A DNA stretch of 64,000 nucleotides, from contig NZ_CP083740.1 in NCBI RefSeq assembly GCF_020150455.1, positions 3,906,001-3,970,000 of the forward strand, given 5' to 3'. Below, one piece after another: positions 11,567-21,092 of this stretch. Within the stretch, counting starts at the first letter, position 1. Each line of letters starts with the position of its first letter. The position numbers were made by a program, and so were the translations under genes. The notes under the pieces are model-generated. The model made no database searches and was not told where the DNA came from. It saw nothing but the letters and a program-made list of their open reading frames with translations. This DNA comes from Bremerella sp. TYQ1 (lineage in GTDB: Bacteria > Planctomycetota > Planctomycetia > Pirellulales > Pirellulaceae).

Positions 11567-12574
11567 ATGAGTAAAGTTCGTTGGGGTGTACTGAGCACCG
11601 CGAAAATAGGCACGGTTAAAGTCATCCCTGGAATGCAGCGGGGGCAATACTGCGAAGTGTCCGGTATCGCGTCCCGAAATCTGGACAATGCCCAAGCGGC
11701 AGCCGATGAGCTGAACATTCCCAAAGCGTACGGCTCGTACGAAGCTTTGCTGGAAGATCCAGAGATCGATGCGGTCTACATTCCGCTGCCTAACCACATG
11801 CATGTGGCGTGGGCGATCAAAGCGATCGAAGCCGGCAAGCATGTGCTGTGCGAAAAACCGATCGGGCTGAACACCGAAGAAGCGCGGCACCTGGCCGATA
11901 TCGCCTATCAGCACCCCAACTTGAAGGTGATGGAAGCGTTCATGTATCGCCATCACCCGCAATGGCAGAAGGCTCGCGAGATCGTTCGCGAAGGTGGCAT
12001 CGGTACTCCGGTCACCATCCAGTGCTTCTTCTCCTACTTCAACAACAATCCTTCCGACATCCGCAACAATCCGGAATGGGGTGGCGGCGGCATCATGGAC
12101 ATCGGCTGCTATCCGATTTCGTTGTCGCGGTTCATCTTTGAAGGCGAGCCTGAAAAAGTGATGGCCGCCATCACGCGGGACGAAGAATTCAAGACCGACG
12201 TGGTCGCTTCGGTGATGATCGACTTCGGCGGCTTGATGAGCACGTTTACTTGCGGCACGAAGATCGCCCCGTACCAACGCGTGCATATCGTCGGCACCGA
12301 AGGACGCGTCGAAATTCAAATTCCGTTCAACGCTCCGCCTGACAAGCCATGCATCCTGTGGCATCAGCAAGGGGAAGAGATCACCCAGATCGAACTGCCG
12401 ATCGCCGATCAGTACACCATCCAGGGCGACCTCATGTCTCAGGCCATCCTGGAAGACACCGAAGTCCCCACCCCCATTAGCGACGCGGTTGCCAATATGG
12501 AAGTGATCGAAGCGATCTTCCGCAGCGAACGCACCGGCCGCTGGGAATCGATTAACCACATGGTGGCCAAGTAA
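11567..12574 (+). CDS. Gfo/Idh/MocA family oxidoreductase
   Basis: A 335-residue NAD(P)-dependent dehydrogenase with the Rossmann start VRWGVLSTAKIGTVKVIPGM. The catalytic motif VLCEKPIGLNTEEARHLAD lies near residue 92, and the central MDIGCYPISLSRF motif is also present. The length and the pattern EAFMYRHHPQW resemble the glucose-fructose or dihydrodiol dehydrogenase-like branch, but the substrate is not certain. I favour the ATG at 11567, which has AGGAACAG upstream, over the in-frame ATG at 11540, which has no ribosome-binding site. It stands alone: neither neighbour is metabolically linked in an obvious way. Confidence 0.9.
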   Translation: MSKVRWGVLSTAKIGTVKVIPGMQRGQYCEVSGIASRNLDNAQAAADELNIPKAYGSYEALLEDPEIDAVYIPLPNHMHVAWAIKAIEAGKHVLCEKPIGLNTEEARHLADIAYQHPNLKVMEAFMYRHHPQWQKAREIVREGGIGTPVTIQCFFSYFNNNPSDIRNNPEWGGGGIMDIGCYPISLSRFIFEGEPEKVMAAITRDEEFKTDVVASVMIDFGGLMSTFTCGTKIAPYQRVHIVGTEGRVEIQIPFNAPPDKPCILWHQQGEEITQIELPIADQYTIQGDLMSQAILEDTEVPTPISDAVANMEVIEAIFRSERTGRWESINHMVAK

Positions 12575-12643
12575 CCACAAGCGACCGACTTATTCCCAAG
12601 GGCGCGTCTCGACACACTGGAATCGCCCCGACAACTTCAAACC

Positions 12644-12699
12644 ACCGAGCCCCAACGAAGCCGCCGCCATCAACCTCGGCCGCCCCGTTGGGGCTCGGT
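12644..12699. repeat. Perfect 14-bp inverted repeat, related to the 33.6-kb repeat
   Basis: ACCGAGCCCCAACG (12644-12657) is exactly inverted as CGTTGGGGCTCGGT (12686-12699) around a 28-base GC-rich loop. The right half (GCCGCCCCGTTGGGGCTC) closely matches the inner arm of the nested repeat at 33561-33762 (GTCGCCCCGTTGGGGCTT), so both look like members of one dispersed family. No T-run follows, so it is a poor terminator candidate. The 12575-12960 gap otherwise holds only the palindrome at 12806. Confidence 0.75.
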
Positions 12700-12805
12700 T
12701 CGTTCTTGCCCGCAATCCCCCCACATCGACGCAGGCCCTGCTGCAGTACAACACGTCACAGCATTTGCCATTTCTATCGCATGCAGCAAAGTAGCCGATG
12801 CTTAA

Positions 12806-12825
12806 TGCGTCGAGACGCACCCTAC
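12806..12825 (-). repeat. REP-like palindrome, single copy
   Basis: TGCGTCGAGACGCACCCTAC: read on the minus strand it starts with GTAGGG and forms the same hairpin as the paired elements at 16842 and 19830. The following 30 bases (GCGGGGATGGGAACTGGCCG) resemble those after the copy at 13873 (GTGGGGCTCGGAATTGGTCG), so the two copies share more than the palindrome. They flank the membrane-protein gene 12961-13860 in direct orientation. Confidence 0.75.
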
Positions 12826-12960
12826 GCGGGGATGGGAACTGGCCGATTTCGGCACGGTTTGGAATAGTTGGCCTGGTAGTGCTTTTGAAGATGCGACCTG
12901 ATACCGTAGGAAGTTGCTGTTGGTGGCCTTGGTTTTGATGATCTTACGCATGCTTGCTTT

Positions 12961-13860
12961 ATGGAAGTTGAATCGGACGACGATCTGGACATGGACGCGT
13001 CGTTACCAGGGGACGACGAATCTAGCTCAGGCGAATCGTTGACGCGTTCGATTCCGGTCCGCATCCTTGGGGCGGTGACGCTAATCATCTGGCTTCAGAT
13101 TGCGTTTGCCGTGCTCTTCTCTATCCCTGGCCCGCCCAGCATTTCTTTAACTGCGGCACTGTTCGGCGTGATGACGCTGACCAGCTTTTTTCTGGCGTGT
13201 GGCAATATTCGTTTTCGGTGGCGATTGCTTCTGGCGATCGGCCTCTGCACACTCCTGACTTTGGTGTTACCGTACAGTCGCCTGGCCGGATTTGTTGTCG
13301 TGATGGGCATGGGGCTGGCATCCATCGGCCTGACATTATTCAACCGCTTTCTGGTCTCCCTAGTCTTCGGTGAGAAAAGCCTCAAATGGCGATTCACACT
13401 GTTTGGACTGATGGCCTTCACTACCATCGTGGCGTTGGTTGCTTTTGCGGTGAAAAGCTTGATGCCGCATGTCGTCCCGCTTGATGTTTTGATCGGTCTT
13501 TTGGTCCTGGTCTTTCTAGCTTGGGTCCTGGCGTTTCAATGCGTGCCGCTATGGTCACGAAATTACGCGGAAGCGCTTTGCCTGGTCGGCAGTGCAATGA
13601 TGCTGGCGTTGACTGCTCCGGCGATCGCTCACGAATGCCTAAGCGCGGCCCTGCAGAACCCACCAACGTTCCTGCAAGTACAACTTCCGACGTGGTCGGC
13701 GATTGGTTTGATTTGGCTGCTGCTATATCCGCTGTGGCTTGGGTTCTACGCTCTCGATTGGTCGCTGGTCCACCCGAACTGGAAACAGCACGCGTCCCCG
13801 ATCCCCCCAACTTCAACCGCCGCCACAACGGAAGCAGCGGACGTACTGATGGACGATTGA
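12961..13860 (+). CDS. Multi-pass membrane protein of unknown function
   Basis: A 299-residue protein that I do not recognise. An acidic N-terminal tail (about 1-25, rich in Asp, Glu and Ser) precedes seven or eight hydrophobic segments spread from about 35 to 270. A short C-terminal tail rich in Thr and Ala ends in acidic residues. It contains no catalytic motif, no ABC or transporter signature and no zinc site. The start lacks a clear ribosome-binding site; an ATG at 12991 is an alternative. The gene lies between two REP-like palindromes in direct orientation, so it may have moved with them or may simply be bordered by them. Confidence 0.7.
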   Translation: MEVESDDDLDMDASLPGDDESSSGESLTRSIPVRILGAVTLIIWLQIAFAVLFSIPGPPSISLTAALFGVMTLTSFFLACGNIRFRWRLLLAIGLCTLLTLVLPYSRLAGFVVVMGMGLASIGLTLFNRFLVSLVFGEKSLKWRFTLFGLMAFTTIVALVAFAVKSLMPHVVPLDVLIGLLVLVFLAWVLAFQCVPLWSRNYAEALCLVGSAMMLALTAPAIAHECLSAALQNPPTFLQVQLPTWSAIGLIWLLLYPLWLGFYALDWSLVHPNWKQHASPIPPTSTAATTEAADVLMDD

Positions 13861-13872
13861 ACTGCGACCAAA

Positions 13873-13898
13873 GCAGGGTGCGTCTCGACGCACCCTAC
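13873..13898 (-). repeat. REP-like palindrome, single copy
   Basis: This copy is almost fully palindromic over 26 bases: GCAGGGTGCGTC and GACGCACCCTAC flank a TC centre. It lies 13 bp after the stop of the membrane-protein gene. On the minus strand it carries the GTAGGG foot. The position could also let it act as a transcription barrier. Confidence 0.75.
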
Positions 13899-14034
13899 GT
13901 GGGGCTCGGAATTGGTCGCTTTACTTATGCTGTTGAATGGCTGGTCTGATCGCTAGAGACTTCCCCTGCATAGAGATGCAATAACCCCTACATCAACTAT
14001 TTGTACAATTTTGCGTCTTTCGTGGACAATTCTC

Positions 14035-14063
14035 TTGACCGTCGGTTGCAATATGGGCATATT
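14035..14063 (+). promoter_or_regulatory. Putative sigma-70-type promoter
   Basis: TTGACC (five of six) is separated by 17 bp from CATATT (four of six), about 220 bp upstream of the pseudopilin gene at 14284. The remainder of the gap 13899-14283 shows no gene. Confidence 0.35.
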
Positions 14064-14283
14064 CAGCCTCGTCCGCGAAACGCACTCGATAAATCGGCCA
14101 TTTTTTGGCCAGTTCGCCTATTTGACCACGATTGTAAATCAGGCGATTTATTGGGTGGCGGCTTGTGCGACGACTATTCCTTAGCTTTTCAGCCCCTTTT
14201 CGCTTGGTTCGCCAGGCCTTTTTCCTTTACTTCTTATGGCCGCGGCAATGCCCGGCTTTTCTTCGTTGGAAAGGACTTATCTC

Positions 14284-15237
14284 ATGTCTTCTTCGCCCAA
14301 AACGCGAGGCTTTACGCTCGTGGAATTGTTGGTGGTGATCGCCATTATCGGTGTCTTGATCGCGCTGCTGTTGCCGGCTGTGCAGCAGGCCCGGGAAGCG
14401 GCTCGGCGGATGCAGTGCACCAACCAGATGAAGCAGCTCGGCTTGGCAATGCACAACTATCACGACACCTTCCTGCAGCTTCCGCCGGGCAACTCCGAGA
14501 TCGAAGCGTTAGGCCGGCCGCGCCGCGAATGGGGCTGGGCACCGCGGATCATGAACTTCATGGAGCAGACCGCGATCGCCGACCATATCGACTTCAAAAA
14601 GCCGTCGTACGATCGCCCCAGCGGTTGGAACAACACGATGATGGACGACCCGAGCGTGATTTGTAATTACAAATTCATGCGCATGGTGCACGATCAATTC
14701 CTGTGCCCCTCGAATTCCCAGGGAGGCGAAGCGGCCGTGGAAGATCACTTCAGTGCCAGCTGGGAGATCTCGCAGTCTGACTATGCGGCGAACATTGGCG
14801 ACTATCCCAATGCGACCGGAGTCGCTGGCGTTGGCGTCACGCACACCGGGGCCGGCAACTCCGAAGAGCGTGTCCGCGGCGTGATCGGCACGCGCGACTA
14901 TGCGGCAAAGTTTTCGGAAATCACCGATGGGCTTTCCAACACCTATTTGCTGGGCGAATGCATCGGAGCATGGAGCCACTGGCAGAACTGGGGTTCCGCT
15001 TGCTTCTCGAGCACGGCCTATCCGATCAATCATCGCAATCGCGACTTCATGAATGGCACGCTCGGCCCGACGGTAAGTCACTGGCAAGAGAATATCGCCT
15101 TCCGCAGCTTTCATCCCGGCGGTGCGAACTTTCTGATGTGCGACGGCTCGGTGACGTTCTTGCCGGAAACGATGGATGGCGCGGCCTATCGTGCAGGCGC
15201 CTCGAAGTCCGGCGGCGAAGTCGCGCAGCTTCCGTAG
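14284..15237 (+). CDS. DUF1559 pseudopilin-like protein
   Basis: A 317-residue planctomycete-type DUF1559 protein. The N terminus has a prepilin signature, [20 protein letters not shown], with a Gly-Phe cleavage site, a conserved Glu at +5 and a hydrophobic helix; a PilD-like peptidase should process it. The segment AVQQAREAARRMQCTNQMKQ is the family hallmark, and the C terminus carries the HPGGANFLMCDGSVTF motif. GGAAAGGA precedes the ATG at 14284. These proteins are greatly expanded in planctomycetes, and their role (pseudopilus subunits, surface adhesion or secretion) is not settled. A lipoprotein gene follows 70 bp downstream. Confidence 0.93.
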   Translation: MSSSPKTRGFTLVELLVVIAIIGVLIALLLPAVQQAREAARRMQCTNQMKQLGLAMHNYHDTFLQLPPGNSEIEALGRPRREWGWAPRIMNFMEQTAIADHIDFKKPSYDRPSGWNNTMMDDPSVICNYKFMRMVHDQFLCPSNSQGGEAAVEDHFSASWEISQSDYAANIGDYPNATGVAGVGVTHTGAGNSEERVRGVIGTRDYAAKFSEITDGLSNTYLLGECIGAWSHWQNWGSACFSSTAYPINHRNRDFMNGTLGPTVSHWQENIAFRSFHPGGANFLMCDGSVTFLPETMDGAAYRAGASKSGGEVAQLP

Positions 15238-15307
15238 GCCTCGCGTCGGTTTCGGCACGTGTCGGTTCCCTTCATTCCCTGCTTCCCTACTTCCAAGGAA
15301 ACGAACC

Positions 15308-15763
15308 ATGCTTTTTGCAATGCAGCCGCGTTCGACTTACTTGCTGCTGCTTTTCGGCATGTTGATCTTCAGCGTTGGCTGCGACAGCGGTCCGCAGCTA
15401 GGCCAAGTGACCGGCAAAGTTACCTACCAGGGGAAACCTCTTAAAAAAGGTACGATCATTTTCGAGGTGCCTGGCTCGCGATCATCGTTCGGCGAAATCG
15501 AAGGAGGCCAGATCGTGAACGTTTCTACGTTCGAATCGGGCGATGGCGTTCCAATTGGCGAGGCGAACGTGGCGATCAACTCCTACGACGATAGCGCCCC
15601 GTCGGCCCAGCCAAGCTCGCAGGGGAATGCCTCTGCCCCTGGTGGAGCAAGCCAAATGGTGGTCGGCAAAAACCTTCTGCCGAGTCGATACGCCAATCCG
15701 GCGACCAGCAATCTGACGGTTACCATCGCCGCGGGTGATAATGTAATCGACTTTGATTTGTAA
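15308..15763 (+). CDS. Lipoprotein with carboxypeptidase-regulatory-like (beta-sandwich) domain
   Basis: A 151-residue lipoprotein. The signal is YLLLLFGMLIFSVGCDSG, with lipobox FSVGC and Cys near residue 22. The body begins VTGKVTYQGKPLKKGTIIFE, the start of a transthyretin-like or carboxypeptidase regulatory-like domain. A low-complexity stretch rich in Ser, Ala and Gly follows. A short beta-sandwich ends in TVTIAAGDNVIDFDL. In planctomycetes such proteins commonly follow a DUF1559 gene, as here, which suggests a shared surface function. AAGGAAACG precedes the ATG. Confidence 0.85.
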   Translation: MLFAMQPRSTYLLLLFGMLIFSVGCDSGPQLGQVTGKVTYQGKPLKKGTIIFEVPGSRSSFGEIEGGQIVNVSTFESGDGVPIGEANVAINSYDDSAPSAQPSSQGNASAPGGASQMVVGKNLLPSRYANPATSNLTVTIAAGDNVIDFDL

Positions 15764-15826
15764 CAGCAAAGTAGGGTACGTGACCTAGCTGTTTTCGTTG
15801 CGGTGCGAAATGGTTGGTTTGGCAGG

Positions 15827-15922
15827 CAGTGGCCACAGCGGTGGGGCTACTCCTCTTCGTCGTCGTCAATGCGACGCTCGGTCCAGTATTCGTAGCTGGC
15901 GAGCGTTTCGCCGACGGCTTCG
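15827..15922 (-). pseudogene. Duplicated C-terminal fragment of the zinc-ribbon gene at 16278-16835
   Basis: These 96 bases repeat 16259-16353 in direct orientation with a few substitutions and one indel. On the minus strand they encode the last roughly 24 codons of the neighbouring gene (ending ERRIDDDEEE, stop) without a start. A complete small ORF sits between the two copies. It is best read as a remnant of a tandem duplication or the scar of a cassette insertion, and is not a gene. Confidence 0.85.
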
Positions 15923-15923
15923 G

Positions 15924-16253
15924 CTAAGGTTTACTCACCCTGCGAAGAATCCATGCCGCGGCGGCGATGATAGTTCCAGAAATTGCACCAAGCAATGAAT
16001 AGACTAGCCAGGATTCAGGCATGCGGATGAGACTTGCTAGAATCCCCACGACTGTCGCTACACATGCCGTCAAAGAATACAACATAACGGCACGCCAGGT
16101 TTTTATTTCCCCTTGTGCTGCAAGGGTGCTGGCTCCGATTGCAACAAGCAGAAAAGTTTCCGCTTGGAGATCGTTGCCAAACAGCCTTGCCGCTATCGAC
16201 GACACAACGCCTAGCAGGATGCCTACGGCACAACAGGAAGGAAAGCTTGGCAT
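15924..16253 (-). CDS. Small membrane protein between direct repeats
   Basis: A product of 109 residues from the ATG at 16253, or 114 from a GTG at 16268 inside the repeat. It has two clear and perhaps three hydrophobic helices: CAVGILLGVVSSIAARLF, then LLVAIGASTLAAQ, AVMLYSLTACVATVVGILAS and WLVYSLLGAISGTIIAAAAW. It ends with basic RRVSKP. I do not recognise the family. The ORF fills almost exactly the 336 bases between the two 96-bp copies, and its stop abuts the distal copy, so it looks like a self-contained inserted unit. No ribosome-binding site stands out. Confidence 0.6.
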   Translation of the reverse strand: MPSFPSCCAVGILLGVVSSIAARLFGNDLQAETFLLVAIGASTLAAQGEIKTWRAVMLYSLTACVATVVGILASLIRMPESWLVYSLLGAISGTIIAAAAWILRRVSKP

Positions 16254-16258
16254 GGACG

Positions 16259-16353
16259 CAGTGGCCACAGCGGCGGTCTACTCCTCTTCGTCGTCGTCAA
16301 TACGACGCTCGGTCCAGTATTCGTAGCTGGCGAGCGTTTCGCCGACGGCTTCG
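16259..16353. repeat. Second copy of the 96-bp direct repeat
   Basis: This is the functional copy: it contains the 3' end of the zinc-ribbon gene 16278-16835 plus about 19 bases beyond its stop (CAGTGGCCACAGCGG). The partner is 15827-15922, and the distance between copies is 432 bp. Confidence 0.85.
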
Positions 16354-16835
16354 TCGGAGGTGAGGCCTTCGACTTGAGGGACTCGGGCAAATTGGTGGTG
16401 GGCGTAGATGCCGTCGAACTCGAAGTTTTCGAGGTTGGCCGGAATGTAGTTGCCGTCGATGTAGACGCACAGCTGCCCTTCTTCAAGCCCTTCCATTTCG
16501 GTCCGCATGTAATCGATCCAAATCTCGATATCTTCGTCCTCTGGCGGCTCGTCGTAGCGCGTGTCGAGGTCGTGATGGGCCAGTTCTTCCCACGTCAAAT
16601 CGCAAGGAGCGACGACGGCGAACGTGTAAGCCTTGCGGCACTGGGGACAGATAATCAGCCAGCCGCAGCCACACCAAGGGCAATCGAGTTGACCCGGCGC
16701 GGCGACCCAAGTGGGCGTGCATTCACAATGGGAAACCAGATCGTCGTTTGCCTTCTTAAGAAAGAGGCCAGCCTTTTCATTCTTCACTTGCTTGTACCTT
16801 TGCGGATACGTTTTCAAACGTTGCAGATTCCCCAT
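16278..16835 (-). CDS. Cytoplasmic zinc-ribbon protein of unknown function
   Basis: The 185-residue product has a Cys-rich section HCECTPTW...CPWCGCGW...CPQC (about 37-70) that can bind zinc. An acidic C-terminal half follows, containing YDEPPEDEDIEIWID, and the protein ends in a run of Asp and Glu (IDDDEEE). I do not recognise the family. I start at the ATG at 16835 because an in-frame GTG 30 bases upstream lies inside a REP-like palindrome and would translate repeat DNA (RRDAPYA). There is no signal peptide or membrane segment. The 3' end is duplicated downstream. Confidence 0.75.
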   Translation of the reverse strand: MGNLQRLKTYPQRYKQVKNEKAGLFLKKANDDLVSHCECTPTWVAAPGQLDCPWCGCGWLIICPQCRKAYTFAVVAPCDLTWEELAHHDLDTRYDEPPEDEDIEIWIDYMRTEMEGLEEGQLCVYIDGNYIPANLENFEFDGIYAHHQFARVPQVEGLTSDEAVGETLASYEYWTERRIDDDEEE

Positions 16836-16841
16836 CGTAGC

Positions 16842-16940
16842 GTAGGGTGCGTCTCGACGCACCACGAATCACCCAACCGGAAAACAATAACGGCGCAACG
16901 CGCATGACTAGCAGGACAGGTGCGTCGAGACGCACCCTAT
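16842..16940. repeat. REPIN-like pair of inverted REP palindromes
   Basis: The left arm at 16842-16863 is GTAG, then GG, then the hairpin of TGCGTC/GACGCA with a TC centre. The right arm at 16919-16940 is its inverse, ending CCCTAT instead of CCCTAC. The arms enclose 55 bases, giving a 99-bp element. Bases just inside the left arm (CGAATCACCCAACCGG) match those inside the left arm of the pair at 19830 (AGAATCATCCAATCGG), so more than the palindrome is shared. Confidence 0.8.
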
Positions 16941-17104
16941 GTTTTGTGATTGGCACGCAGCTTTTTGAGTTTTATTCGCTGACGAGTCGTGAAACCTGCG
17001 TGAAAGTGGCGAGCGACTCGATTTTCGCATTCCCCTCGTCTGGACGTCGGTGCATAATCGGAGGCGTGGATTGCATTGGCCCGCTTTTTCTATTTGACCT
17101 ACTC

Positions 17105-18595
17105 ATGTCTCGAATGATTCGAACTCTTGTGGTGGCCGTGGTCGTTTCGCTGACCGCCGTCGATCTTGTTTTTGCTCAGCTGAGTGATTCGCCTTGGCTG
17201 AATTCGTCGGATATATCGATCCCGGCTGGGGAAAAAGCCCAGATCACTGTCGGCCCCTTCGGCTGCCCTGTGGTGGTCGTCGATCGCGAGGCGTGGCACA
17301 TCAAGTCGAAGAAGGTCGTCCAAACCATCCCTGGCGATACCGAGATCGGCGAGTATCGCTGTTTGAGTGGCAACGGAATGTACTTCGCCGCCTACGAAGG
17401 AACCCACTGGGACAAGGGCAGCAGTATTAACGTCTGGAACCTGGTCACCGGGGAACTTATTTCGCGGGTACCTGGCAAGCAAAGCAGCTACTACCCAGTG
17501 ATGAAGATCATGTACAACCGCTATCTGCTGGCGGCCCCCAACACCGGACAATCGCTGTTGATCTGGGATATCCAAGAGAGCAAAAAGGTGCGCGACGTAC
17601 TTTGCCGTACCGAAAACATTGAAGAAGGCCAGCTGACCGTTTCGCCCGATGGCAAGTTCCTGGCATTGGTCGAAGGGGACAAAGTTTCTGTACTGAACTT
17701 GGCCGATGGACGCTATGTCGGCAACCTGGCCGCTCCGCTACGTGACCCTAGCAGCACTTACAACTACACGCTGGGCGCCAGTGGCGTGGAAGACCTCGAG
17801 TTTTCGCCGGACGGTCAAGAGATGGCGGCGATCTACAACACCTACGGTAGGCAGCGCTTGGTGGTCTGGAATGGTCGCGGCCAGATCATATACGACATCA
17901 GCATGTTCATTCCATGGGGACGTTTAAACGAATACAGTCTTTCGTGGTTGCCAGACAAGAAGGGCTGGATCGTCGATGGAAATGTGATTCATCGCGACTC
18001 GAAGAAGACGACGGTTCAGTTCAAGCGACCCCGCTACGATACGGACGAAATTGGCGTGCTGGATCAATACTTTGTGATCGGTCGCTTCGGGGAAGATGCC
18101 GAGTCGATCACGATGATCGGGATTCCTTGGGAAGAAGTCGACCGTTCGTTCGAGGCGATGGAATCGGTCGAGAATGCGATCCTTGGCCCCGGCGTGAAGG
18201 TCTCGTTGATGGTTTACATGCGTGGCCAGACTGGCGAAACGATCAACAAGGCCCGAGCCGCGATCGGCGATGCGATTGTGGCTCGCCTGAAAGCGGACAA
18301 GATGTTGTTCGCGCCAGACCAGGAGGTCTACCTCCGCTTCAACTGCGAACCAGCGTCGCTCGAACATTCTTACGGCGTCGCAAAGCTCGACTTATTCATC
18401 AAGGGCTCCGACGAACCGATTTGGTCGCACGAGTTTACCAGTGGCAGTTCGCGTAGCTTCCTGCAAGGACTCGACGGAGGCACCATCGCCGACGGAGCGA
18501 CCGAATCGCTTGCTCGCGAGATCGCCCTGATCCAGATCCCTTACTTCATTCCCCGCACGGCGGAACATTTACCGCTGCCGCTGGTGATTCAGTAG
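17105..18595 (+). CDS. Secreted WD40-like beta-propeller protein
   Basis: A 496-residue exported protein. The N terminus MSRMIRTLVVAVVVSLTAV with VFAQ forms a signal peptide. The middle holds WD40-like blades recognisable as LTVSPDGKFLALVEG...VSVLNL and LEFSPDGQEMAAIYN...LVVWNG, plus NVWNLVTGELISR. The last 150 residues are not propeller-like and contain VKVSLMVYMRGQTG and EVYLRFNCEPASLEHSYG, possibly a second domain. The reading frame is open well upstream through the REPIN, but no signal is encoded there; an ATG at 17114 is equally possible as start. The role is unknown. Confidence 0.8.
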   Translation: MSRMIRTLVVAVVVSLTAVDLVFAQLSDSPWLNSSDISIPAGEKAQITVGPFGCPVVVVDREAWHIKSKKVVQTIPGDTEIGEYRCLSGNGMYFAAYEGTHWDKGSSINVWNLVTGELISRVPGKQSSYYPVMKIMYNRYLLAAPNTGQSLLIWDIQESKKVRDVLCRTENIEEGQLTVSPDGKFLALVEGDKVSVLNLADGRYVGNLAAPLRDPSSTYNYTLGASGVEDLEFSPDGQEMAAIYNTYGRQRLVVWNGRGQIIYDISMFIPWGRLNEYSLSWLPDKKGWIVDGNVIHRDSKKTTVQFKRPRYDTDEIGVLDQYFVIGRFGEDAESITMIGIPWEEVDRSFEAMESVENAILGPGVKVSLMVYMRGQTGETINKARAAIGDAIVARLKADKMLFAPDQEVYLRFNCEPASLEHSYGVAKLDLFIKGSDEPIWSHEFTSGSSRSFLQGLDGGTIADGATESLAREIALIQIPYFIPRTAEHLPLPLVIQ

Positions 18596-18793
18596 ATCCT
18601 GCGATGGGCTGGTACCGATTTTTAACTCGGTATCGGCGTAATCGACAAGATGCCATTGCAAGCAGTCGGACCTGAGAGTCACGCTTCTATGCGGACGCTA
18701 GCCGCATTCCATGGCTTCCTGTGGTCTTCGGCCATCCGAGATTAAAACCGAGACCATCCGACGAATGCAAAGTGATAAAGCAATGCGTTGGGC

Positions 18794-19777
18794 TTAAGCC
18801 TTCCGCGTCGGGAATGGAATGACTTCTTCGATCGACTTCGCTCCAAGGGCAACCATTACCAGGCGATCCAAACCTAATGCGCAGCCGCTGCAGGCCGGCA
18901 GTCCGCTGCGCATCGCTTCGATCAACTGACTTGCCTCAGGCAGGCGTGGCTTGCCGAGCTGCTGTCGGGCCTCGTTGTTGATTCGATTACGCTGGACAAG
19001 CACCTCGGCGTCGAGAAGTTCGTCGTAGCCGTTGGCCAATTCCATACCGTCAACAAACAACTCAAAGCGGCACGCGACGCGCGGATTGTCTTCGTCCAAC
19101 CGAGCCAATGCGGCTTGCGATGCGGGATAGTGATACAAGATCACCGGCGAATCGAAACCAAGCTTCGGCTGAATGAGTTCCCCCATCAGCAGCTCTAAGA
19201 GGCCATCGAGATCGTCGTTCGAAAATGATTTTGGCACATTGACGTTTTGCGCACTCGCCACGTCGCGCAGTGCCTCGGCAGTGACTGACAAAGGATCGAA
19301 GCCAAGATGAGATTGAAACAGTTCTTGATAGCTGACCAGTTGGGCCGGACCACGCTTTAAAACGGCTTCGGCGAGGTCGGAAAGCAGCTGCATGCCGGCC
19401 TTCAAATCGTCGCCGACGCGGTACCATTCGACCAGGGTGAATTCGACGTTGTGCTGCGAACCAACTTCGGCCAATCGAAATGCTTTAGCGATCTGAAAGA
19501 TGGCTTCCGCGCCGTCCGCCACAAGCCGCTTCATGGCGAACTCTGGCGACGTCTGCAGATAGAAGGCGTCACCATGCTGAGGCTCGGCCGGGTTCCAGGA
19601 AAGCGTGACCGGCACCGGATCGAGATGCGTGTCGATGACCGTATCGCGCGAGAGCAGCGGCGTCTCGACTTCCCAGAAGCCCAGCGAAAGAAAGAACTGC
19701 CGCACCGCTTGAGTGATCTCGTGACGACGCTTCAAGTGATCAAGCGACGCCGTCGGTCGCCAGGAATCTTGTGACAT
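18794..19777 (-). CDS. epmA: EF-P lysine ligase EpmA (PoxA/GenX, class II LysRS paralogue)
   Basis: A tRNA-synthetase paralogue that attaches (R)-beta-lysine to a lysine of elongation factor P, relieving polyproline stalling. The 327 residues match the E. coli protein in length. Class II motif 1 is visible around ITQAVRQFFLSLGFWEVETP. Motif 2 is LAEVGSQHNVEFTLVEWYR, and motif 3 is CSGCALGLDRLVML near the C terminus. The anticodon-binding domain of true LysRS is missing, as expected. The ATG at 19777 (MSQDSWRP) aligns with the E. coli start, so the in-frame upstream start is unlikely. No efp or epmB gene is in the window. A C-terminal proline/basic FPTRKA tail ends the protein. Confidence 0.9.
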   Translation of the reverse strand: MSQDSWRPTASLDHLKRRHEITQAVRQFFLSLGFWEVETPLLSRDTVIDTHLDPVPVTLSWNPAEPQHGDAFYLQTSPEFAMKRLVADGAEAIFQIAKAFRLAEVGSQHNVEFTLVEWYRVGDDLKAGMQLLSDLAEAVLKRGPAQLVSYQELFQSHLGFDPLSVTAEALRDVASAQNVNVPKSFSNDDLDGLLELLMGELIQPKLGFDSPVILYHYPASQAALARLDEDNPRVACRFELFVDGMELANGYDELLDAEVLVQRNRINNEARQQLGKPRLPEASQLIEAMRSGLPACSGCALGLDRLVMVALGAKSIEEVIPFPTRKA

Positions 19778-19829
19778 GGGATTGATTTCGATGGTGGACT
19801 TGGGCTCATTCAAACCGGGGTGGCAACAG

Positions 19830-19980
19830 GTAGGGTGCGTCTCGACGCACCAGAATCATCCAATCGGTTTCCACCCACTATGCTTGGCAATGCATTTTCT
19901 TTCGGGATCAATTACGTTGTCATGAGCAGCGTGGCGTCACGACGGTTTGCCAGGGCATGGTGCGTCGAGACGCACCCTAC
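19830..19980. repeat. REPIN-like pair of inverted REP palindromes
   Basis: The left arm 19830-19851 has GTAGGG plus the hairpin. The right arm 19959-19980 is its exact inverse and ends in CCCTAC. The arms enclose 107 bases with no gene, and the whole element is 151 bp. It lies in the gap between epmA and the NRDE gene. It is the most perfect pair in the window: all 22 bases of the arms are complementary. Confidence 0.85.
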
Positions 19981-19994
19981 GCTGTGGTGGGGCA

Positions 19995-20029
19995 TAAAAA
20001 AAGAGCACATCGTATGGCGATGTGCTCTT
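19995..20029 (-). terminator. Rho-independent terminator of the NRDE gene
   Basis: AAGAGCACATCG and CGATGTGCTCTT form a 12-bp perfect stem around TATGG. On the minus strand the stem is followed by seven T. It lies 28 bp past the stop of the minus-strand gene at 20058. Confidence 0.9.
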
Positions 20030-20057
20030 AGGTTGGTTGATGCTCGCCGGAGGGCGA

Positions 20058-20834
20058 TTAGGCTTCGGCTCGCGAAGCTCGGGCTTCTCGCAGACCGCGG
20101 CTGAGGATGTCTCGCAGCAGTGGCGAGTAATCTTCATAGCCCACTTTGGTCGGAGCGCCTTCAGCGTATTGGAAGATGGCGTCGCGTGGCTTCTTACCCA
20201 GCGAAACGAGCGTACTGCTGACAGTACCCCATTCCTTGCCTTCGATGACCATGCCGGGGCGGCCTTGGGCTGCCGGTGGACGAGCGAAGACTTTGCTGGA
20301 AACGGCGAGAAACTTGACGGCCGAATCGAGCGTCTGCAGCGTCATCAGGCGATGAGCAAGCTGGACACGTTCGTCACGCGAGTCGTTCAAGTCGTGACCG
20401 CCGATCAGGTTCAAGCCTTCTTCCAATCGTTGGGCGTTGACGTCGTCGCCACCATGAACGACCCAGCCGCTGTCGGCATCGGCCATTACGAAGTTCACGC
20501 CGTCGTACTGCTCGGACATCAAACCTTCCATCGCAATTTCGACGGCGGCTTGAGCACTGCTGGCACGCAGCAGTTCACGGCAAAGCAGTCCCCGCGAACG
20601 AGGGACCGGCGGACGCTTCATCTTGCGACGATTGGTGCAACCTACGACAAGCCCGTGCTGATTGACGCCGAGCCAGGTTCCCCCGGCTTGTTGATCAATT
20701 CCGCACAGTGCTCGAGGCTTCCCCGATTGAATCGAAGGTGCCAACGTGGGACGATCATAAAACTCTTCCCGGTTAGCCGCGACAAGGATCGGTGCTTCGG
20801 GAACGCTTCGGTATTGAATTGCCAATAGGCACAT
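20058..20834 (-). CDS. NRDE (TANGO2-like) family protein
   Basis: A 258-residue protein of the NRDE/TANGO2 family, whose members are cytoplasmic and may have an N-terminal-nucleophile fold. The start MCLLAIQYR gives an N-terminal Cys after Met removal. The signature ANREEFYDRP replaces the usual N-R-D-E with N-R-E-E. GGTWLGVNQHGLVVGCTNRR is the second hallmark. The last part contains GTVSSTLVSL, also typical. I start at 20834 because Met-Cys is the conserved N terminus; an upstream in-frame start would add 35 unrelated residues. The biochemical role is unsettled (heme trafficking has been proposed for TANGO2). The gene is divergent from the oxidoreductase at 21093. Confidence 0.87.
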   Translation of the reverse strand: MCLLAIQYRSVPEAPILVAANREEFYDRPTLAPSIQSGKPRALCGIDQQAGGTWLGVNQHGLVVGCTNRRKMKRPPVPRSRGLLCRELLRASSAQAAVEIAMEGLMSEQYDGVNFVMADADSGWVVHGGDDVNAQRLEEGLNLIGGHDLNDSRDERVQLAHRLMTLQTLDSAVKFLAVSSKVFARPPAAQGRPGMVIEGKEWGTVSSTLVSLGKKPRDAIFQYAEGAPTKVGYEDYSPLLRDILSRGLREARASRAEA

Positions 20835-21092
20835 ATTGTTAAAGAGCGGGGCTAAAGGTAAGAAAAAGCGAGCACCCTGGTCACGCCCCAAGGCTGAACT
20901 AATCCTTTTGAGTCTATTCTTTTTTCCCCATTCGGACACCCTTTAATGGGGGTCGAGTACCTAAATTTTTGTTAAAACAAGTTTCTCGAAGGGCTCCTTG
21001 AAGGACGTGTGAACAGTGGGGCTGAAAAAGGCCCACTACCCCCACTTTTAAGGTATCCCCTCTGTCAGGTTATCAGGAAAGAGTTTGCCCCC

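Follow-up and report, generated by a model that had tools for sequence, protein, structure and literature searches.

A GTAG-footed inverted repeat in Bremerella sp. TYQ1 is very likely a REPIN, probably of an orphaned population

The window analysed here is a stretch of 64,000 nucleotides of the Bremerella sp. TYQ1 genome (contig NZ_CP083740.1, genome positions 3906001-3970000), and between two of its minus-strand genes lies a 151-bp inverted repeat at 19830-19980. One of these genes (18797-19777) encodes a class II tRNA-synthetase-like protein of 327 aa (PF00152), and the repeat starts 52 bp upstream of its assumed ATG at 19777. The other (20061-20867, start assumed) encodes a TANGO2-family protein (PF05742) and is followed at 20001-20029, also on the minus strand, by a terminator-like hairpin with 12-bp arms and then a minus-strand T run; this hairpin is separate from the repeat, which lies beyond it. 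The repeat is thus extragenic, being placed between two Pfam-supported genes in a spacer that is not conserved in congeners.

The ends of the element are two inverted REP units with their feet outwards, namely GTAGGGTGCGTCTCGACGCACC, a foot plus an 8-bp hairpin, at 19830-19851 on the plus strand, and its identical inverted partner at 19959-19980 on the minus strand. The original prediction described two exactly inverted arms of 22 bases; the inversion is indeed exact (100% complementary), and the arms are 23 nt long (19830-19852, GTAGGGTGCGTCTCGACGCACCA, and 19958-19980) with 105 nt between them. As it also stated, each arm begins with GTAG and carries a hairpin, GGTGCGTC-TC-GACGCACC, which has an 8-bp stem and a 2-nt loop, and this GTAG-type foot plus short palindrome is the REP unit that a REPIN is built from. 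Just inside the right REP, at 19948-19958 on the minus strand, is the subterminal sequence ATGCCCTGGCA, which is related to AAGCCCTGC of congener REPINs and to both ends of the RAYT unit in congener G127.

The 18-nt hairpin has 12 matches in the window (≤3 mismatches, both strands, palindrome counted twice), compared with a mean of 0.08 and a maximum of 1 in 100 dinucleotide shuffles. Genome-wide, the 22-base unit has 23 matches at ≤3 mismatches, against 0 for the reversed control, so that many dispersed copies exist above chance; the 23 matches represent 22 places, one hairpin having a foot at both ends. Against these two controls, a chance inverted repeat is practically inconceivable, and the count is also above the two or three copies that the original prediction regarded as too few for a REPIN. 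Compared with REPIN families in the literature, the copy number is low. The pair at 19830-19980 was the only one originally reported, and it is present but not alone, as the window has four places with a REP unit. The others are a degenerate REPIN at 12597-12825 (5 mismatches in the left unit and 2 in the right), a single REP of the double-foot form GCAGGG...CCCTAC at 13873-13898, with GCAG as one foot, and a second REPIN of the family, 99 bp long, at 16842-16940, of which the right foot is ATAG. A further stretch of the window, at ∼14304-14489, recurs many times across genomes of the genus with ∼80-86% identity, and probably corresponds to the conserved beginning of proteins from one common family.

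For the pairing census, 15 own-genome loci around known matches were scanned for neighbouring half-sites within 200 bp, with ≤2 mismatches in the foot and ≤5 in total; palindrome self-overlaps and the single double-foot hairpin were excluded. Eleven neighbours were head-to-head, one was tail-to-tail and none was tandem, which is the kind of pairing preference that the original prediction relied on, and the lone tail-to-tail pair falls between two adjacent REPINs. REPINs were aligned when gaps were 20-150 nt and each unit had ≤4 mismatches, which gave 10 own-genome elements and 13 from congener G123; the pair at 12597-12825 is outside this rule and was therefore left out of the ten. The ten own-genome pairs are 75-151 bp long, and ten of the 13 from G123 are 141-151 bp long, the other three being 92, 176 and 177 bp. 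All these pairs consist of inverted REPs and a spacer and could form a single long hairpin, and two of them were folded as DNA: the window REPIN gave z = -7.0, with 0 of 200 shuffles as good, and one G123 REPIN gave z = -5.7.

Most aligned REPINs share a plan in which the first REP is followed by an AGAA/AGAG..TGC stretch, then by an inner inverted repeat close to GCGTGGCAACGC / GCGTTACCACGC, by GCAGGGCTT and by the second REP. The window REPIN, with CTTGGCAATGC inside and GCCAGGGCAT adjoining its right REP, fits this plan loosely. The arms have a mean identity of 0.89 in the own genome and of 0.91 in G123. Interiors of own-genome elements, at 0.440, differ as much as shuffled ones do (0.435), and those of G123 reach 0.61, versus 0.54 when shuffled; the contrast between arms and interiors is inflated because the arms were located by motif. 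The own-genome REPINs, which are those found by searching for the ends, are linked mainly by these ends. The subterminal GCCCTGC (≤1 mismatch) is present in 12 of the 13 aligned G123 REPINs and in two of the ten own-genome REPINs, that of the window among them, and is missing from the other eight; its rate in shuffled arms is 0.004-0.007 per arm. It is also found beside several half-sites of congener G124, and is missing from the G127 half-sites away from the RAYT (L238, L242/L245, L254).

The distribution of the REP within the genus is patchy. Distinct places (≤3 mismatches, palindrome double hits dropped) number 53 in G123, 22 in the own genome, 12 in G124 and 9 in G127, and the other five of the nine genomes have 2, 1, 1, 0 and 0, where the reversed control gives 0-1. 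At ≤1 mismatch, the REP occurs in three of 100 sampled genomes of the family, own genome included. Among named genomes there are 97 exactly matching stretches, and 77 of the 80 listed carry a planctomycete label, among which we count Candidatus Brocadiales, presumably planctomycetes; the three remaining listed records are one Syntrophaceae and two loci of one bacterium isolate. One viral contig carries the motif.

Because tblastn of own-genome RAYT proteins and pieces against the 80 REP-match loci gave 0 hits, whole genomes were searched for RAYTs with a family model. REP_Tyr_transpos had matches in 26 of 28 genomes, 21 over the cut-off; most of the 28 had been chosen for holding the REP, and two are congeners without it. 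Among the 30 RAYT loci listed from them, four are bounded by this REP on both sides (L165, L166, L167 and L170). All four are outside the genus, in G080 of the same family and in G111, G113 and G114 (Brocadiales, Pirellulales and Phycisphaerae by record titles), and a further locus near a contig start (L190) has this REP on one side of the RAYT only. None of 20 further RAYT loci from REP-bearing genomes has it. In G100, with many listed REP matches, two of the four RAYT matches were inspected (L178 and L310), and this REP accompanies neither. Of 26 further RAYT loci of the genus set, one is bounded on both sides, that of G127 (L257), by a generic foot-plus-hairpin rule at positions 800-2700 of L257-L282 that a mismatched REP may escape. 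Comparison of REP and RAYT places in the draft assemblies of G123 and G124 revealed no RAYT with this REP. By the original prediction, lack of a RAYT gene in the genome and its close relatives would have told against a REPIN; RAYT genes with this REP at either side are present in one congener and in four genomes from elsewhere.

The units L165, L167, L170 and L257 are 611, 644, 651 and 784 bp long, respectively, and that of L166, with one REPIN per side, is 902 bp. GCCCTGC is present at both ends of the G127 unit and at none of the eight ends of the four outside the genus. Genes of the G127 and L170 types encode a Y1 HUH domain with REP_Tyr_transpos scores over the cut-off, the WQ and Y..NP motifs are visible in the aligned RAYTs, and the L170 protein matches the solved E. 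coli TnpA-REP structure 4er8 (E 6e-31). Judged from these sequence matches, the enzyme cognate to this REP would be a RAYT of the kind known from E. coli TnpA-REP. In a tree of 17 RAYTs, the six with the TGCGTC REP fall in two parts (L166/L170/L257 and L165/L167/L190), which does not favour a single clade of RAYTs with this REP, though several forks are weak; the three with the TCCGC REP cluster. The G127 frame contains one in-frame TAA. A single in-frame stop is found in four of the 17 RAYT frames (L171, L172, L190 and L257), at or beside the conserved RW motif in three of the four, and in two of these frames it is most simply read as a decayed TGG codon.

In the own genome, Y1/RAYT matches are located at genome positions 3220443, 3381851, 4385544 and 5701677, all outside the window, in agreement with the original statement that the window has no RAYT gene. 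The genome has three RAYTs; none of them has this REP beside it and no motif match is near them in this assembly of one contig, 96.5% complete. Hence the usual companion of a REPIN, a cognate RAYT in the same genome, was not found here, although it is not part of the structural definition. The best-scoring RAYT has an internal TGA and is bounded by a sister REP, GTAGGGTCCGCTGTGCGGACG, which is matched 42 times in the own genome and equally often in G123, where a stop-free RAYT adjoins the sister-REP stem. This sister family resembles the window family in its foot and its many head-to-head pairs, and differs in its stem and in having its own RAYT locus, TGA inside, kept in the own genome. Sister-REP variants such as GTAGGGTACGCTGTGCGTACC alter both stem sides together, which supports the hairpin; stem variants TACGC/GCGTA and TGCGC/GCGCA are present on G123 contigs C10, C30, C35 and C42. 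On both sides of this RAYT unit there is an 86-nt direct repeat, 91% identical (L027:1125-1210 and 2036-2121, within genome 4385222-4386218), which resembles the neighbouring gene's end. The other own-genome RAYTs, L025 and L026, each lie between inverted repeats of a different sequence, GGGTGGTACCGG... and CGGGTGGTCCGGG..., possibly a third and a fourth repeat family.

The match at 5701677 is over the IS200 cut-off, and the window repeat might accordingly be a miniature element of this IS200/IS605-type transposase instead of a RAYT. However, genome-wide no match of the motif (the GTAGGGTGCGTC hairpin) is near this gene, the inverted repeat flanking it is a different sequence, and the motif bounds RAYTs instead, which together make such an origin very improbable.

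The genes flanking the repeat are conserved in eight congeners, and the repeat is missing from the orthologous spacer in all of them. The comparison between strains that the original prediction suggested thus shows absence at the locus level, but the spacers (compared segments of 157-334 bases in congeners versus 341 in the own genome) are too diverged for an exact empty site to be read. A different palindromic sequence was seen by eye in the orthologous spacer of G126, G128 and G090 (L224, L227 and L225), and this spacer may be a favoured landing place for repeats. A rival reading takes the repeat for a cis-acting element at the RNA or DNA level, such as a terminator, an mRNA-end stabiliser or a protein-binding site, which is kept for its function and is not mobile. 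Selection for a hairpin would be expected to keep the arms almost perfect and leave the interior free, and the location between two same-strand genes would suit such a role. Nevertheless, the upstream gene already has the terminator-like hairpin at 20001-20029, which has a counterpart in all eight congener spacers (T run and counterparts judged by eye), whereas the repeat itself is missing from all eight; moreover, the REP bounds transposase genes, and window positions 12000-20600 have no Rfam match at E≤0.1. We therefore consider such a cis element improbable.

Copy number, head-to-head pairing, REP-bounded RAYTs and locus-level absence in congeners all support the REPIN-like design that was originally proposed, and we are confident, short of certainty, that it is a REPIN. 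Such an element is a non-autonomous hairpin element with two ends, each of them a REP of the kind that also terminates a RAYT (Y1 HUH transposase) unit. By analogy with E. coli TnpA-REP, the REPs would fold in single-stranded DNA, and a RAYT would recognise the GTAG foot and hairpin, then cut and rejoin the strand, thereby copying the element, or moving it, into spacers. Because the own genome yielded no RAYT that has this REP beside it, the REPIN population there is probably a remnant whose mobilisation is past, and the original remark that a RAYT must act in trans if it exists was an understatement. A G127-type RAYT lineage may once have mobilised these copies and later disappeared from this genome, so that the population left behind is orphaned and ageing.

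Alternatively, the population would not be orphaned if its copies are still mobilised in trans, either by the sister-REP RAYT of the own genome, an enzyme of the same model family with the same GTAGGG foot, or by an unassembled RAYT in the part beyond the 96.5% completeness of the assembly. According to PMC6006769, each tnpAREP has its own REP family; the sister-REP RAYT, besides its internal TGA, lies apart from L170 and L257 in the tree, and the own-genome copies look old. Continued mobilisation in trans thus seems unlikely, though it retains some plausibility, and a remnant REPIN population is the reading we prefer.

A text search for REPs together with Rhodopirellula baltica, which we take to be the planctomycete cited elsewhere as R. 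baltica, found no paper. In PMC3733652 (Di Nocera et al. 2013), GTAG repeats are reported for the Planctomycetes/Verrucomicrobia/Chlamydiae superphylum, and R. baltica is given many tyrosine transposase genes with flanking repeats. According to this text, the kind of element is already known, R. baltica included, and the original impression that it was undescribed in planctomycetes does not hold. Neither this family by sequence nor the 12-base motif was found in published text, a search that covers text apart from figures and supplements; this stem may or may not be among the 24 GTAG families of Figure 1 in PMC3733652.

The present elements share a GTAG foot, short stem, 2-nt loop and head-to-head order with the REPINs and GTAG-tagged REPs described before (Bertels and Rainey 2011, PMC3116915; PMC3733652). 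In most GTAG families of those studies, dimers are preferentially head-to-head; partners are mostly 20-100 bp apart, and dimers can form one hairpin. Full elements here (∼141-151 bp) are longer than the 71-bp GI spacing described for SBW25 in these sources (PMC3116915 / PMC3733652). The units with a RAYT gene bounded by inverted REPs are like the RAYT / TnpA-REP units (REPtrons) in the text of PMC6006769, unlike which the own genome is without a cognate RAYT gene. Double-foot REPs, tied there to subclass 2.4, are present here.

Four states of REP families are seen across the nine genomes: some families have a stop-free RAYT, some a stop-bearing one and some none, and in some genomes the family is absent. 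It is conceivable, and we put it forward tentatively, that turnover is fast for the REP families of the genus (at least the TGCGTC, TCCGC and TGGAATG types) as well as for their RAYTs, and that REPINs can outlast their own RAYT, perhaps by borrowing a sister RAYT. With these data, the anatomy of a complete REPIN is described for planctomycete REPs, together with their distribution across a genus and a cognate RAYT. The elements are otherwise ordinary, and the genus offers a natural genome series for seeing the fate of a REPIN population after transposase loss; if the turnover reading is true, the nine genomes would be a direct test of REPIN decay after RAYT loss.
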